IMG/VR virus record: IMGVR_UViG_3300046542_000227
Span: 203,321 to 267,320 of that record
DNA length: 64,000 nucleotides
Strand: one strand, 5' to 3'
From: a virus
Part shown: piece by piece, positions 3,697-14,322 of the stretch
Position numbering within the stretch: position 1 is the first letter of the stretch
Layout: each line of letters begins with the position of its first letter
The notes under the pieces: model-generated
What the model was told of the DNA's origin: nothing
Databases searched by the model: none
The model's input: the letters and a program-made list of their open reading frames with translations, nothing else
Program-made: the position numbers and the translations under genes

Positions 3697-3705
3697 CGAC
3701 ATAAA

Positions 3706-3728
3706 GCCCCTCCCATCGCGGGAGGGGC
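3706..3728. terminator. Bidirectional terminator between convergent genes
   Basis: A 9-bp stem GCCCCTCCC/GGGAGGGGC with a five-base loop, flanked by GACATAAA on the left and CTATGCCGCTTTTTC on the right. It separates a + strand gene end (3696) from a - strand gene end (3749). Confidence 0.75.
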
Positions 3729-3748: not shown

Positions 3749-4267
3749 TTACGAGGTGACCCCATTCAATCCATTCTGCAATGCTCGCTCCGCAGCTGCT
3801 GCGGCCGAGTCCTTCTGACGAATGGTGTCTTCAGCCATGTCCAGAATAAATGCAGCGATTGGATAAGGGAGGTTCCAGAACTCAGTCAGTGAATAACCTT
3901 GTTCATGGATCCGGTACGTATGGTAACGACGAACCAAACTAAACATTGGCCCACCTTCCCAAGCGTTCTCCTTATCATGCATGGCCATCAGCGCTAGCGG
4001 GCGCATCGGGTCAGGGGCATTAATGTGATCGTAGATACCATAGTCAGTTTGATAAGCCATCAAACTAAGCTGAGCCGCGGCTGTTGGTCTTACGGCTGGT
4101 GACTCACGCAGCAGCTGATCGATAAGACCATACTGCTGCGCTTGCTTTAGACCGAATGTACCAAACAGGACGTGTCCGTTCTTGTCGTCCTCGTTGATAG
4201 AGAGACGACTGTAGCGGGCGTCGGTGTTCGTTACATGATGCGGCTGAGCTTCCGGCTGGCCAACATG
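3749..4267 (-). CDS. Start-less -1 frame extension of the 4231-5916 gene
   Basis: This frame is open from 4339 down to the TAA at 3751-3749, but it has no ATG, GTG or TTG before the TTG at 4063 and ATG at 4060, and those lack a ribosome site. It reads as normal protein well upstream of them (for example NTDARYSRLSINEDDKNGH). It is the -1 frame relative to the gene ending at 4231. A slip at G TTT TTC (4273-4267) would join residue 550 of that protein to 172 residues from here, giving about 722 aa. The tail holds EFWNLPYPIAAFILDMAEDT, which resembles in style the frameshifted half of tail assembly chaperones (my inference). The alternatives are one missing T in the assembled sequence, or a short independent gene from 4060. 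Confidence 0.6.
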   Translation of the reverse strand, partial: HVGQPEAQPHHVTNTDARYSRLSINEDDKNGHVLFGTFGLKQAQQYGLIDQLLRESPAVRPTAAAQLSLMAYQTDYGIYDHINAPDPMRPLALMAMHDKENAWEGGPMFSLVRRYHTYRIHEQGYSLTEFWNLPYPIAAFILDMAEDTIRQKDSAAAAAERALQNGLNGVTS

Positions 4268-5916
4268 AAAAACTCCGCCAGTGGATCGACAGTGATCAGG
4301 TTCTCGAAACGCTCTTTGAACTTGGTCGCTGCAGGCGTGTTACAGACCGGGCAGTTGAAGGAGTTGATTGCAGTCATGGCAATCAGGCTGTCGTCGATAT
4401 ACTTCTCGACAGCGTCGTTGAATTCTTTGATGTGCTCATCGGCCGAGTAAACGTCAGACAGGATGTCAGCGATGAAGTCCTTCTCTTCCGAGAGAACCAC
4501 GTAGCCATCTGGCGCTTCTGGGTTGATGTCAACAATGGCTTTGATCCAGTGCGTGTATTCACGCGCAGCGGTGGACTCAGCCAGTTGTTCGATAAAGCGA
4601 GTACGGTTACGACCTTCAGGCGGTTCGTTGAATGCGCCTTGAGTCATTTCGATGATGCCGGTCAACCAAGCACGTCCGAGCTCTTCGTGATCCCAGACCG
4701 ACGGGCATTGCAACAGGAAGCCCATCTCGCCAATCTGCACCAGACGCTCACGACCATAGACGTGATGCGACTTGTACGTGGCCAGGTCTTCCTTGGTACG
4801 CGGTGCACGCGCATCGATACGGAAGGCCATATGGGTTTTCTGCCATGGAGTCAGACCGTTCATGTCGACCCACCACATGTTCACCACTTGCATCAGTTCT
4901 TTGGTGATATGGTTGCACTTGCCGATATCGGCGATGCATGGCGACGCGTACGGATAACCGGCTGGGTACAGAGTAGCAGCCAGACCCAGGATTACCGCAG
5001 GGATGTCACGGGTGTCGATCAATGGCTTGAGGTCAGTCGGCGTAGCAAACGAAACGTTCGCATTGCTGACGTGCTGCAAAGCAAAGTCAACCACGATGGT
5101 CTTGATGTAGTGGGCGACGTTAGAGAACGCCAGACCACGGGTTTCAGAACCTACCGATACTTTGACCTGTGCCACTTCCTGGTTCATCGCGGTCAGTTCA
5201 ACCAACGATGGGGCCTTGAAGCGCAGCCAGATACCCGAATGCCACAATGGCATATCAACGGTACCACCAACGCCCGCCTTACGGGTGACGTAGGACTTCA
5301 GCTCTTCACGGGTGTACTTGCCATCAGCAGCCAGACGCTGGACAGGAATACCACCACCGATGTGCTTGCCTTCGTGTTCAACCGTTTGACCCCAGTGCGA
5401 ACCTTCACGATGCAAGGCAGCAGTGTGACGGTCTGGATCGTTAACGATCTGACGGGACAATGCACCGAGCAGCAGACGCAGGTGAGGATCACCTTTGTCG
5501 TCCGGGATAAAGTCGGCAGTACGACCGATGGCTTCAGCCAGTTTGGTTTCGGATGTAATCATCCGTTCCATAATAGCCGAGCTGTGGTTCAGCACCTGGG
5601 TAACCGTTTCAACCGTTTCACGCAGGATCGCGACGCAGTCACTCAGGCTAGGCTCAGGCTGCTTATCAGGCAGTGGTTTGGTAACCGGGCGGGTAACCGT
5701 ATGGTTAGTGCCGGGTTGATCTGGCGTGAAGGGCTCCAGAGGAGGCAACTCTTCGTCAGGAGCATCCTGGATCAACTGCTGCACTTCAGCCTCACCAAGC
5801 GGTGGTGTGGCGATGTGTGGGTTGATCGGTGTTTCACCAGACGGCACAGCAGCGCCGGCAGCTGCCGGCTCCACTGCGTCGCCCTGACCGGCTTTCGGAT
5901 CATCAGGCAGTTGCAT
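4231..5916 (-). CDS. Virion/tail assembly-type protein, 0-frame product, 561 aa
   Basis: The first ~90 residues are acidic, rich in Pro and Ala, and probably disordered. The rest is a folded domain with a CPVC pair (C522, C525) shortly before the end, which could bind zinc. The ATG at 5916 overlaps the stop of the upstream gene by 14 bases, so the two are translationally coupled. The last 11 residues (from M551) follow a run of five T at FF549-550, where a -1 slip would lead into the open frame 4267-3749. A CxxC followed by a short conserved end is seen in gp26-like baseplate or tail-chaperone proteins of myophages. I infer a tail assembly role from this and from the recoding layout, not from a clear sequence match. 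Confidence 0.8.
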   Translation of the reverse strand: MQLPDDPKAGQGDAVEPAAAGAAVPSGETPINPHIATPPLGEAEVQQLIQDAPDEELPPLEPFTPDQPGTNHTVTRPVTKPLPDKQPEPSLSDCVAILRETVETVTQVLNHSSAIMERMITSETKLAEAIGRTADFIPDDKGDPHLRLLLGALSRQIVNDPDRHTAALHREGSHWGQTVEHEGKHIGGGIPVQRLAADGKYTREELKSYVTRKAGVGGTVDMPLWHSGIWLRFKAPSLVELTAMNQEVAQVKVSVGSETRGLAFSNVAHYIKTIVVDFALQHVSNANVSFATPTDLKPLIDTRDIPAVILGLAATLYPAGYPYASPCIADIGKCNHITKELMQVVNMWWVDMNGLTPWQKTHMAFRIDARAPRTKEDLATYKSHHVYGRERLVQIGEMGFLLQCPSVWDHEELGRAWLTGIIEMTQGAFNEPPEGRNRTRFIEQLAESTAAREYTHWIKAIVDINPEAPDGYVVLSEEKDFIADILSDVYSADEHIKEFNDAVEKYIDDSLIAMTAINSFNCPVCNTPAATKFKERFENLITVDPLAEFFMLASRKLSRIM

Positions 5917-6445
5917 TGAGTTCGCTCTCCAGGATGCTGGTGTATTCTTTCTCTACGGTTTCAGCCAGCGAAACCAGCAGTGGCTGAATGCCGGATTCGT
6001 AGTGGGTAGCCAGCTTGTTGTAGCCGGTAGCCAGATCGAATACATCGGTGATCTCTTCAGCGCTTGGAGCACCCGACTTGTCTTTGTGGACTTCCCACAG
6101 CGACGCGAGGTTCTCGTTGTAGTTGGCGATATCGCCGCACAGCGTACCGAAGCTACGCTTGAAGCCTTCGGCGTCAGCCAAGTGCTTGCAGATGTTCGGC
6201 AGTTCTTGTTTGACCGGGATGACGAAGTTGCTGGTGCTGAGGATCAGACCGGCACACTCGCTGTACAGTTCGCGAAGGATGTCGTAGCCATCGGCGCCCT
6301 TGAGTACAGCTTCAGCGGTGAGGCTTTGCATGTCCTGGACTTGGCCAACGATTTCTTTTTGTTCGGTCGCCGGCAGAGTTGCGAAGGCTTCCAGTTTCTT
6401 TTGTTCCGGCACAGCAATGGCGCTACCGGCGATCAGCTCACTCAT
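5903..6445 (-). CDS. Hypothetical protein, 180 aa
   Basis: A soluble, mainly helical, acidic protein with no motif I recognise. Its first part (PEQKKLEAFATLPATEQKEI) looks like a helical bundle segment. It is the first gene of a leftward two-gene unit and overlaps the next gene by 14 bases. It starts at ATG 6445, with AGGAGAACGGG (on the - strand) in good ribosome-site position. The intergenic region upstream is shared with a divergent + strand operon. Confidence 0.75.
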   Translation of the reverse strand: MSELIAGSAIAVPEQKKLEAFATLPATEQKEIVGQVQDMQSLTAEAVLKGADGYDILRELYSECAGLILSTSNFVIPVKQELPNICKHLADAEGFKRSFGTLCGDIANYNENLASLWEVHKDKSGAPSAEEITDVFDLATGYNKLATHYESGIQPLLVSLAETVEKEYTSILESELNATA

Positions 6446-10240: not shown

Positions 10241-12331
10241 ATGCTCGAACTGCTACTCACCGTAGGGCGGAAGACGACCGCAGCTGATGATTCGGATGTG
10301 CCATTTAATCCAGGCACTCCGTTCAAAGGCGTAGTACCAGCAGCGTCCTTTATCACAGGCGATACTCTCGCCGCCGCCATCAACTACCAAGGTGGTGTAT
10401 CCATTAACACGGACGCTGGATGGCTGCACTTTATCGAAGACAATGGTCTTGAGCTGTATATTGCCAAGAAGCCATTGCGTTATGGTATCTCCCCATCATA
10501 CAACGCCGAAGCATATGCTAGTGTTAACGGTGAAATCAATATCGCTGGTACCGTATACGTAATACGGGACATGTACGGTGCCGCCAGTATTTCAGGCGGT
10601 TACGGTCCAAGCAACGCTGGCGGTGAATGGAACCGTTACATGTACAACGTCTACGATCAAACCGATCGGGCGGGTATTCCAGAGGCCCTACTCTGGGGTA
10701 ATTACACCAACCCAATGTTGGGACTCCCTACCTCAACCGACGGGACCGACCTAGGAGATGGCGTCTTCAGCATCTGTGCGGACCACATCGCTGAAGGCAT
10801 AATAGTGCGCGGCAATGACTGGTACAACAGCAGTGGTGGTTACCACATTAAGGGTATCTGGTACGCACCACCCGGTAATATCCAGTCCTATTATGGCTGG
10901 CGTCCCATCCTGATCAAGAAGTCCACGATTCCACCAACACCGTTCAAAGGTGTGGTAGCACCCGAAGACTTAATTAGCGCACCTGACCTCGCCACCACCG
11001 TCGGTCTAACCACCGGTTCCCTCGGCTACGATCCTAATCCGGGCTGGCTGAAGTTTGTCAACAATGGCAAAACCGTCTACATCGCCAAGAAGCCGTTCCG
11101 GGTTAGCATCCTCTGGACGACGCTCAATGACTTGGGTGTGGTCTTCGGTACCAAGACTCTGGCGATCGGTGGTAAGCTCTATAAAGTTCGCTTGATGACG
11201 GGTAGTAACACTGACCCAGCGGATTTGGCTGCTGGTGAGTACGACACTCTCTTCTCACGAGTCACTGCGCTATATAGCGGTCCTGGTGAGCGTTGGGGTG
11301 AGCTTACGTACGATGACGTCGGATGGTACGGGGGTACGGGCACAGGTGAATTGTGTCTGTGTCAAGAACAATACGGCGGTGGACCGCTAACCCGAGGCTA
11401 TCCTGGTTTCGGTGGTATGTGGTATCAAGTGCCTACCGATACACATCCTGGCTATAGCTGGCGTCCAGTGTTGGAGCTGATAGGTGATGCTCCTACCATC
11501 ACTGACAGTTGGACCAAGCTGGGTGATCTGCCTGTGGCGATCAACGGGGCATCGGCTTGTGTCATCGGCAACAAGATGTACGTGTTCGGTGGCCAAGATG
11601 CTGGCTTTGCGGTTAAAGGCGGACTGTACGAAGTTGACCTGACTACGGGTGCTGTAGTTACCAAAGCGTCCGATGCGGCCAGACGTTACCACACGGCGGC
11701 AGCGATCAACGGCAAGATGTATATCTACGGGGGCTACACCACAGCTTACGTGGGTGATGTCAGGGTCTATGATCCGGCAACCAACACTTGGGCGAACGGT
11801 GCATTAAACGGCGTTGCTACAGACCGACATGCAGGTGTGGTGTACAACAACCTGTTCTACAACTTCGGTGGTAACGCAAGTCAGACACAGGCACGTTCTT
11901 ATAACACAGTGGGTGCTGCATGGTCTAACTACACCCCAACTGGTCTGGGTGGTTCTCCTTGCTACTTGGGTTCGGCTGACGTCCTTGGCACCAACATCTA
12001 CACCCACACTGGCTACCAATCGCAGAAGCAGTTCCGTAAGATCGACATGGTTGCTAACGTGTCGAGTGCACTGGCTAACCCACCGCATGGTTCGTATGGT
12101 CATGCACACGGTGCGATGCAGGGTGGTATCTACCTGCTGGGTGGTACGGTTGACGTGACTGGTAAAGACAAGGTAGTTACTCGTTACGATATCAACTCGA
12201 ACACCTGGAGTTATCTCGGTGCGATTCCTTACACCATCGGTGAACGGGCAGCTTGTGCGCAGGATGCAACCAACATTTACGTAGTGGGTGGCGTGGGTAG
12301 TCCAACAGCGATATGGAAATACACCCCGTAG
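10241..12331 (+). CDS. Tail-fibre-like protein: two repeat domains plus kelch propeller
   Basis: The 696 residues hold two copies of a ~190-residue domain (about 27-227 and 233-412). Each copy starts TPFKGVV, has a YIAKKP(L/F)R core and a GGEW- or GEY-like turn, and ends GWRP(I/V)L. From about 422 to the end there are kelch repeats (YVFGGQ, YIYGGYT, YNFGGNA, YLLGGT, YVVGGVG), predicted to form a beta-propeller. The same domain occurs three times in the next gene. Such modules suit a virion adhesin that binds the host surface. It starts at ATG 10241 after CGGAGCAAATC. The protein starts MLELLL, like the MLEYLL and MLETML starts of the next two genes, which supports this start. Confidence 0.8.
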   Translation: MLELLLTVGRKTTAADDSDVPFNPGTPFKGVVPAASFITGDTLAAAINYQGGVSINTDAGWLHFIEDNGLELYIAKKPLRYGISPSYNAEAYASVNGEINIAGTVYVIRDMYGAASISGGYGPSNAGGEWNRYMYNVYDQTDRAGIPEALLWGNYTNPMLGLPTSTDGTDLGDGVFSICADHIAEGIIVRGNDWYNSSGGYHIKGIWYAPPGNIQSYYGWRPILIKKSTIPPTPFKGVVAPEDLISAPDLATTVGLTTGSLGYDPNPGWLKFVNNGKTVYIAKKPFRVSILWTTLNDLGVVFGTKTLAIGGKLYKVRLMTGSNTDPADLAAGEYDTLFSRVTALYSGPGERWGELTYDDVGWYGGTGTGELCLCQEQYGGGPLTRGYPGFGGMWYQVPTDTHPGYSWRPVLELIGDAPTITDSWTKLGDLPVAINGASACVIGNKMYVFGGQDAGFAVKGGLYEVDLTTGAVVTKASDAARRYHTAAAINGKMYIYGGYTTAYVGDVRVYDPATNTWANGALNGVATDRHAGVVYNNLFYNFGGNASQTQARSYNTVGAAWSNYTPTGLGGSPCYLGSADVLGTNIYTHTGYQSQKQFRKIDMVANVSSALANPPHGSYGHAHGAMQGGIYLLGGTVDVTGKDKVVTRYDINSNTWSYLGAIPYTIGERAACAQDATNIYVVGGVGSPTAIWKYTP

Positions 12332-12359: not shown

Positions 12360-12399
12360 CTGTGTGTTTAAACCGAATTACAGCTTAAGGGTGAAAACC

Positions 12400-14322
12400 A
12401 TGTTGGAATATTTATTGGCATCAGGAACAGCCGCCGTGGAGGGACCATTTATCCCGCCAACGGTGGAGAGCGGTAAAGCGTTTAAAGGCTGGGTCAGCAG
12501 TGCGGCGCTGATCGACGGTGATGCATTGGCTACGGCCATTGGCCTGAGTGCAGGTACGTCGCATAACGCTGATGCTGGCTGGTTGCACTACATCGACGGG
12601 GCACGGGAGTTCTACATTGCCCGCAAGACCTTTCGTTATGGCCTAGGGCATGCCCCGATTGAAGCAGCCATCAGCAATGGCACCAAGGTAATCCAGATCG
12701 GCGCTGACTATTATAAGGTCAAGCAGATCTCGGCGATGGCTGCTGATCCATTCAGTAGTATCGTTGGCGTAGGTGGCGGTGGTGACTGGGATAAGTACAT
12801 CTATCCATTGGTCACCGGTCCAGCTCGGGCACAGATCACGGCTGAGGTTTGGTCGTACTATACCGAGAAGGATCTGGGTCTGTCACCGAACTGGGGCACA
12901 CAACCTAATGGATCGATCACACATGCTGCAGACAAGCACAGTGCGCTAACTACGGCACGTGCCTCCCGTGGTCGGAACTATGGCGGCGGGACGTCGATCG
13001 CTTCTGTGGTGGGTCGTACGGTTTATTACTCGGACAACCCTAACGAAGGTAACGCTGGTACGGGTCTGAACCAATACGGCTGGCGCCCGATGTTGGAGAA
13101 AACCACAGCGCCACCACCACCAGATGTATTCTACGGTGAGGTTGCGTCAGGAAGCTTCATCACACCGGGTGCGCTGACGACAGCGGTGGGTATGGGTGCC
13201 GTAGGTTCGGTTACCAACATTGATACGGTCTGGCTGAAGTATAAGATCGCTGGCAAGACTCTGTACACGCCGAAGCTACCACTGCGTCATGGTATTACGT
13301 GGGATGCTTTGAATGCCCTGGGCATCGTGTACGGTACGAAGGTAATCGTTATCGGTGGCAAGCGCTATTCGGTACGTCTGCCAAAAGGTGTCGATCCAGC
13401 AGTACCTTCCGCCAACGTCTACAACCCACTACACATGGGTGGTGACTTCAACAGCATGATCTATCCAGTCTATGGTGGTGTGGCCCTCAATAACGCACTG
13501 GTGCAAGCATATCCACGCTGGGCAGCTTACACAGATGCTGAGTTGGGTCTGAGTGTGTCTAAGTCGGGTATCCCTAATGGTGCCTTGACCATGTGCCAAG
13601 AGATGACCGCCAACGGTGGGTATCTGGTGCGGGGTTATAACGACAACGATAATGCTGGTACTGCACAGATCATCGCTGGCTGGTATGTCGGTGGTTCGGT
13701 TGTGCAGGCGTACGCAGGTTGGCGTCCGGTATTGGAAGAGTTGCCTGATCTGGTCGAGTCCTTCATGGGCGAGGTATCAGCAGCTAACTTCATCACTAAC
13801 AGTGCCTTAACCACAGCGGTCGGTGTAACCATGGGTACGCAGATCAACGCCAGTGAGGGTTGGTTGCATTACTACGTGGACAACACCGAGTACTATCTGG
13901 CGAAGAAACCGTTCCGTCAAAGCTTGACCCGAGAACACCTCCACTCGCTGGGGGCCGCAGTCGGGACCAAGACTGTAACGATCGGTGGCAACGTCTACAA
14001 AGTGCGACTGATGCTCTGTAAAGATCCAGCAGCAGCTAAGCCGGGTCAAGAATGGGCTAAGTTTATCTACCGTGTCTATGGGGGTTCTACAGCGAGCCAT
14101 CCAGATGTACAGGCACAGCCACGTTGGGCTGCTTACACCGATGCCGAGTTGGGCTTAGGTAATGAGAGTCCTGCAGATGGCCACATCAACATCGGTCAGG
14201 ATGCTTACAATGGGGGTTGGGCATCGCCTGGCTACCATAGTCCGACTGAACTGTGGTATCAACCTGCCAACACCACTAACGAAGGCTATGGATGGCGTCC
14301 GTTGCTGGAACTGGTACCGTAG
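12400..14322 (+). CDS. Tail-fibre-like protein with three repeat domains
   Basis: The 640 residues are three tandem copies of the ~190-residue domain seen in the previous gene (about 24-235, 244-448 and 458-638). Each runs from F(K/Y/M)G(W/E)V to GWRP(M/V/L)LE. Internal marks shared by the copies are WL(H/K)Y, an IGG.YKVR-like strand and AYTDAELGL. There is no kelch part. It is probably a structural shaft or receptor-binding component of the same tail organelle as its neighbours. The GTG at 12364 is in frame, but ATG 12400 has the ribosome site TAAGGG and gives the shared MLEYLL start. Confidence 0.8.
   Translation: MLEYLLASGTAAVEGPFIPPTVESGKAFKGWVSSAALIDGDALATAIGLSAGTSHNADAGWLHYIDGAREFYIARKTFRYGLGHAPIEAAISNGTKVIQIGADYYKVKQISAMAADPFSSIVGVGGGGDWDKYIYPLVTGPARAQITAEVWSYYTEKDLGLSPNWGTQPNGSITHAADKHSALTTARASRGRNYGGGTSIASVVGRTVYYSDNPNEGNAGTGLNQYGWRPMLEKTTAPPPPDVFYGEVASGSFITPGALTTAVGMGAVGSVTNIDTVWLKYKIAGKTLYTPKLPLRHGITWDALNALGIVYGTKVIVIGGKRYSVRLPKGVDPAVPSANVYNPLHMGGDFNSMIYPVYGGVALNNALVQAYPRWAAYTDAELGLSVSKSGIPNGALTMCQEMTANGGYLVRGYNDNDNAGTAQIIAGWYVGGSVVQAYAGWRPVLEELPDLVESFMGEVSAANFITNSALTTAVGVTMGTQINASEGWLHYYVDNTEYYLAKKPFRQSLTREHLHSLGAAVGTKTVTIGGNVYKVRLMLCKDPAAAKPGQEWAKFIYRVYGGSTASHPDVQAQPRWAAYTDAELGLGNESPADGHINIGQDAYNGGWASPGYHSPTELWYQPANTTNEGYGWRPLLELVP

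Follow-up and report, generated by a model that had tools for sequence, protein, structure and literature searches.

The 3' end of a 561-codon gene in the virus sequence analysed here overlaps a long reading frame, displaced by -1, that has no start of its own, which raises the question of whether one gene yields two proteins and what such a pair would do. The window (the whole 64,000-nucleotide stretch analysed) comes from a virus record of 267 kb, that of a giant Pseudomonas phage. Among named phages, Noxifer, a Pseudomonas phage of the phiKZ group, is closest to it here, at 73% nucleotide identity. The preferred answer, to which we give a probability of roughly 0.7, is programmed -1 frameshifting that yields 561-aa and 722-aa forms acting as a tail (hub) assembly chaperone pair like gpG/gpGT. 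The frameshift itself is strongly supported by sequence comparison, and the chaperone role is suggested by analogy, by gene architecture, and by a fold model of the short form.

Gene order and reading frames at the locus

The features to which the argument refers are as follows.

5903..6445, minus strand: upstream gene, phiKZ gp78 homolog, 180 aa, overlapping the 561-aa gene by 14 nt
4231..5916, minus strand: short-form gene, 561 aa, 0 frame; phiKZ gp77 (PHIKZ077) homolog, phrog_4585
4915..4938, minus strand: first conserved Cys pair, C327 and C334 (CIADIGKC), a possible metal site
4342..4353, minus strand: second conserved Cys pair, C522-P-V-C525 (CPVC), 24 residues before FF
4273-4267, minus strand: slippery heptamer G_TTT_TTC encoding F549-F550, with five Ts at 4272-4268
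4233-4231, minus strand: 0-frame stop TAA, 11 residues past FF
3752..4267, minus strand: -1 frame extension, 172 residues, phrog_12109, without its own start; C-terminal part of the 722-aa long form
3751-3749, minus strand: long-form stop codon
3701..3728, minus strand: GC-rich inverted repeat followed by TTT, read from the sequence, between convergent genes

The gp77 family (phrog_4585) is labelled as of unknown function in the libraries searched. The 561-aa protein is 67 to 68% identical to its Noxifer counterpart and has homologs in 205 phage records, and all four Cys residues (C327, C334, C522, and C525) are at least 90% conserved among 22 phages. Homologs of phiKZ gp78, gp79, and gp80 lie upstream, and the order of the gp78 homolog followed by the gp77 homolog is kept in the related phages that were read. 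Beyond the extension are small genes in convergent orientation and a helicase, and the inverted repeat at 3701-3728 is a probable terminator at which the transcript would end. The immediate neighbours (RNA polymerase subunit and helicase) carry no tail-gene annotation; the position that defines G/GT-type genes is between the major tail protein and tape measure genes, and the neighbours here are homologs of phiKZ gp78 to gp80 and of a helicase. Elsewhere in the window, two adjacent genes (10241-12331 and 12364-14322) have their matches in common, to phrog_1062 and to virion structural families, and are apparently tandem paralogs.

A check of the sequence agreed with the preliminary description, in which the 561-aa gene ends shortly after F549-F550 and the -1 frame lacks a start until 4063/4060. 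This frame opens 109 nt ahead of the 0-frame stop and continues down to 3752, leaving 172 codons after the shift. Its first possible starts, TTG at 4063 and ATG at 4060, are preceded by 69 codons without a start, and no Shine-Dalgarno-like sequence was found at either.

Conservation of the extension and of the slip site

Relatives were sampled among jumbo phages that form a nucleus (Chimalliviridae-type) and their allies, and 21 GenBank phages together with IMG/VR relatives supplied 114 distinct ORFs of the gp77 family. When the 110 sequences that have the standard site are clustered, 97 groups remain at 90% identity and 60 groups at 50%. In 113 of the 114 relatives, the -1 frame continues for 122 to 182 codons beyond the stop as a start-less, overlapping ORF that is conserved as protein. 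The sole exception is RVTF4 (L006), in which the extension breaks and homology resumes in another frame farther downstream, probably because that record contains an error. An open -1 frame was rejected as evidence by itself, since 116 of 941 control ORF ends in relatives (12%) also have a -1 frame of at least 100 codons past the stop, likely because they overlap an ordinary next gene. The features of this locus that exceed chance are the start-less extension, homology beginning at the slip codon, the heptamer in 109/114, and the split frame in 113/114.

The extension has the properties of an ordinary protein segment, as had been proposed for the region ahead of 4063/4060. Searches with the -1 product (tblastn) gave matches in 70 phage records; for distant phages, the match starts at residue 1, the slip-site Phe. 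Among phages with an intact extension that were read individually, it spans 155 to 174 residues, opening with a conserved F-Y/H and containing the motifs AYxxDYGI and HxxE and a C-terminal (Y/L)SLxEFxxLP helix; its AlphaFold2 model is confident and mostly helical (pLDDT 89). Between the window and Noxifer, substitutions beyond the 0-frame stop number 37/21/81 at -1 frame positions 1/2/3, and those in the main frame number 128/85/260, with third positions favoured in both. The pattern past the stop is that of coding sequence in the -1 frame. In phiKZ, the annotated 80-codon ORF PHIKZ076.4 (L003 4186-4428) corresponds to the C-terminal half of the extension only.

The slip site is conserved beyond its coding capacity. 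An in-frame N_TTT_TTY occurs at an invariant Phe-Phe in 109 of the 114 relatives, as T_TTT_TTT (57), T_TTT_TTC (26), G_TTT_TTT (13), A_TTT_TTT (8), G_TTT_TTC (2), and singletons. The remaining five (L096, L097, L105, L108, and L118) keep split frames and have a T5 run in another register (CTT TTT A or GTT TTT [AT]); they may use another slip geometry. TTT is used for the first Phe of the slip in 110/110 sequences, the window included, versus 635/1864 Phe codons (34%) elsewhere in the same genes; these genes contain 53 further FF pairs, none encoded by TTTTTT and 3 by TTTTTC. This bias amounts to strong selection on the nucleotides of the site, exceeding what the protein sequence needs. The -1 frameshift that the preliminary description had proposed at G TTT TTC is supported by the heptamer, the split frames, and the invariant TTT.

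Proposed slippage and its alternatives

Most likely, the run of five Ts makes some ribosomes slip back by one base, so that one gene gives a short and a long form. Most ribosomes would pass G_TTT_TTC in frame and terminate 11 codons later, producing the 561-aa protein. A fraction would slip by -1 with tRNA-Phe on both codons and read on to 3752, producing a 722-aa protein that carries the 172-residue, mostly helical C-terminal extension. The predicted fusion junction in the window is F549-F550-H-V-G, and the predicted phiKZ fusion peptide across FF and the -1 residues is ..STFFYFGGLEVK. In the window heptamer, a G precedes the T run, and the P-site tRNA would therefore re-pair to GTT with a first-base mismatch; natural slip sites that break the ideal pattern exist, e.g., .._UUA_AAC (PMC5009743). 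In E. coli, U_UUU_UUU shifts less readily than A_AAA_AAG (PMC5009743), so the frameshift rate would be expected to be modest.

Stimulatory elements were sought around the site. Local folding energies in 79 representatives gave no consistent minimum 0 to 40 nt past it, and RNAalifold found no pair in 16 Pseudomonas-phage-type sequences. A Shine-Dalgarno stimulator gave a weak signal only, too near the site to be useful. No published description of this frameshift was found in the open literature, although subscription papers may hold one.

Slippage could instead occur in transcription, with the phage RNA polymerase adding or dropping a base at the T run so that the fusion is in frame on some mRNAs. 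These phages possess their own multisubunit RNA polymerases, and T runs, which range from 5 to 9 across relatives, reach 7 to 9 in many. Against this, the run comprises just five Ts, interrupted by a C, in the window, Noxifer, the IMG/VR contig L025, and phiHQ, and the phase of two Phe codons is held in 109/114, a feature that follows from tandem tRNA slippage but is no requirement for slippage by the polymerase. The short, C-terminated runs and the preserved phase make tandem tRNA slippage the likelier mechanism, and we regard slippage by the polymerase as improbable. The downstream frame might also be a separate gene, expressed from an internal start or by re-initiation, and the database records that were read do give the extension as a separate or truncated ORF, most with various start codons. 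In addition to the 69 start-less codons in the window, the first 25 codons of the extension lack any start codon in 77/110 sequences, a start with a Shine-Dalgarno-like match lies within 45 codons in 10/110 only, and conservation begins at the slip codon. No conserved start codon with a ribosome site was found for the extension in relatives; homologs whose downstream part begins at its own ATG with such a site, the outcome that had been named as refuting a frameshift, were thus not seen, and a separate gene is very improbable. Least probable, to the point of being negligible, is a sequencing error, in which a dropped T would have split what is really one frame of 722 codons. Homopolymer runs are error-prone, and RVTF4 does show an error-like frame break downstream, but the identical T5 site and split occur in Noxifer and in the independent contig L025, and frames are split in 113/114 relatives despite run lengths of 5 to 9. 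The missing T that had been considered for the window therefore fails as an explanation.

Relation to tail assembly chaperones

By analogy with lambda gpG/gpGT, and by the match in structure and architecture to T4 gp26/gp51, the two forms would most likely be needed in unequal amounts as tail (baseplate hub/tape measure) assembly chaperones. We infer that the slip is one of translation rather than transcription, that the forms are made at a fixed ratio and bind the tape measure and tube proteins, and that neither is part of the virion.

The fold model of the 561-aa protein (pLDDT 86) points in this direction. Foldseek retrieved its own family first and then three entries named "Baseplate hub assembly protein, bacteriophage T4-like" (E values of 6e-4, 9e-4, and 2e-3; probability 1.0; TM 0.46 to 0.53 by target length), and weak matches included tail assembly chaperones of other phages. 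On the basis of this model, the 561-aa protein is predicted to have the same fold as T4 gp26/gp51 (PF12322). A second structural search, against the PDB, returned unrelated helical proteins as best matches (Z 3.6 and 4.6). The HK97 tail assembly chaperone (PDB 2ob9) matched the 561-aa model weakly (Z 3.3, with 100/107 residues aligned), which is no evidence by itself because the score does not exceed those of unrelated helical proteins in the same list.

Sequence searches were less informative. The Pfam model T4_baseplate (PF12322) matches neither the window protein nor any of 22 family members, and the gp77 family is therefore not filed under it; Pfam found nothing on the whole gp77 family, and PDB sequence searches with both profiles found nothing relevant. 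Pairwise comparison to T4 gp26/gp51, with few sequences, was weak. In a profile comparison with 15 T4 genes, gp51 was best by a clear margin (P of 0.0005 to 0.0009; 0.018 or worse for the other 14), with probabilities of at most 31%, which is weak in itself. The motif alignment (YSL..MxP helix) was likewise best of the 15 T4 genes (P of about 0.001), with low probability. The control, a cyanophage fusion versus T4 gp51, reached 98.6%. Sequence profiles by themselves fall short of proving that the phiKZ-type and T4-type proteins are homologous.

T4-like phages provide a bridge. T4 gp26 and gp51 are paralogs within one Pfam family (PF12322, T4_baseplate; phrog_150 and phrog_634); gp26 proteins typically end in ..GLKEFFxLL and stop, and gp51 continues for about 60 residues, ending in the YSL..MxP helix. 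Whole records were searched with PF12322 and phrog_634. P-SSM2 and S-PM2 have a single PF12322 gene, with the gp51 C terminus in another frame: the junction is TTT TTC at FF, the 0-frame stop follows one codon on, and the -1 frame runs for 57 codons further. The P-SSM2 record annotates two genes, gp26 and a short (174-nt) gp51 (PSSM2_014/015). T_TTT_TTC lies at the FF of the gp26 end, with the gp51 extension following in the -1 frame, in 79/79 distinct T4-like cyanophages and marine relatives (P-SSM2, S-PM2, and 77 from IMG/VR; L246, L247, and L258-L337). Cronobacter phage GAP32 (L250, NC_019401.1, about 178413-179090) also has just one PF12322 gene; T_TTT_TTC is placed close to where the gene ends, and the -1 frame extends 64 codons past the stop. 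As far as can be read from these sequences, the arrangement and slip site are the same in phiKZ-type and T4-type phages. The likeness to tail assembly chaperone pairs noted in the preliminary description is therefore supported by both the predicted fold and the cyanophage gp26/gp51 arrangement.

The two forms might still be a non-chaperone pair made by programmed -1 frameshifting, e.g., a head or injection factor with two isoforms. The adjacent phiKZ gp79 and gp80, annotated as head/RNA polymerase proteins, and the lack of a Pfam T4_baseplate match fit such a role. Against it stand the match of the fold model to T4-like hub assembly proteins and the placement of the slippery site at the same FF in the gp26/gp51 genes of cyanophages and GAP32; we consider it unlikely, if less so than slippage by the polymerase.

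Tail assembly chaperones appear to have had no assignment in phiKZ-type jumbo phages so far. The chaperone reading names a gene, a site, and a fusion peptide that can be searched for in existing proteomics, and it affects how this gene is annotated in as many as about 200 phage records. It also suggests how T4 gp26/gp51 relate to the gpG/gpGT scheme, i.e., as two duplicated genes versus one frameshifted gene.

The 561/722-aa pair would work like gpG/gpGT and resemble gp26/gp51. In lambda, the ratio of gpG to gpGT is about 30:1. Like that pair, the one described here would comprise short and -1 extended forms of one gene, with the slip near its 3' end (PMC5009743), whereas lambda gpG is far smaller than the 561-aa protein, and no sequence relation between them was found. 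With the cyanophage/T4-like gp26-gp51 genes, it shares the fold match of the short form and appears to share a short Cys-bearing protein ending at FF, a slippery T_TTT_TTC, and a -1 extension with a C-terminal YSLxE..MxP helix. The differences are in size (about 210 to 250 aa for PF12322 proteins versus 561 aa for the gp77 homolog), in the extension past the stop (about 57 to 62 residues for the gp26-gp51 genes versus 122 to 182 in the gp77 family), and in T4 itself, which has two separate paralogous genes without a frameshift. The odds are about even that nucleus-forming jumbo phages and the T4 superfamily inherited one ancestral poly-U -1 frameshift, at the FF where the hub/tail assembly chaperone ends, that phiKZ-like phages, cyanophages, and GAP32 go on using it, and that T4 and its nearest relatives gave it up for a duplication that produced separate gp26 and gp51 genes.
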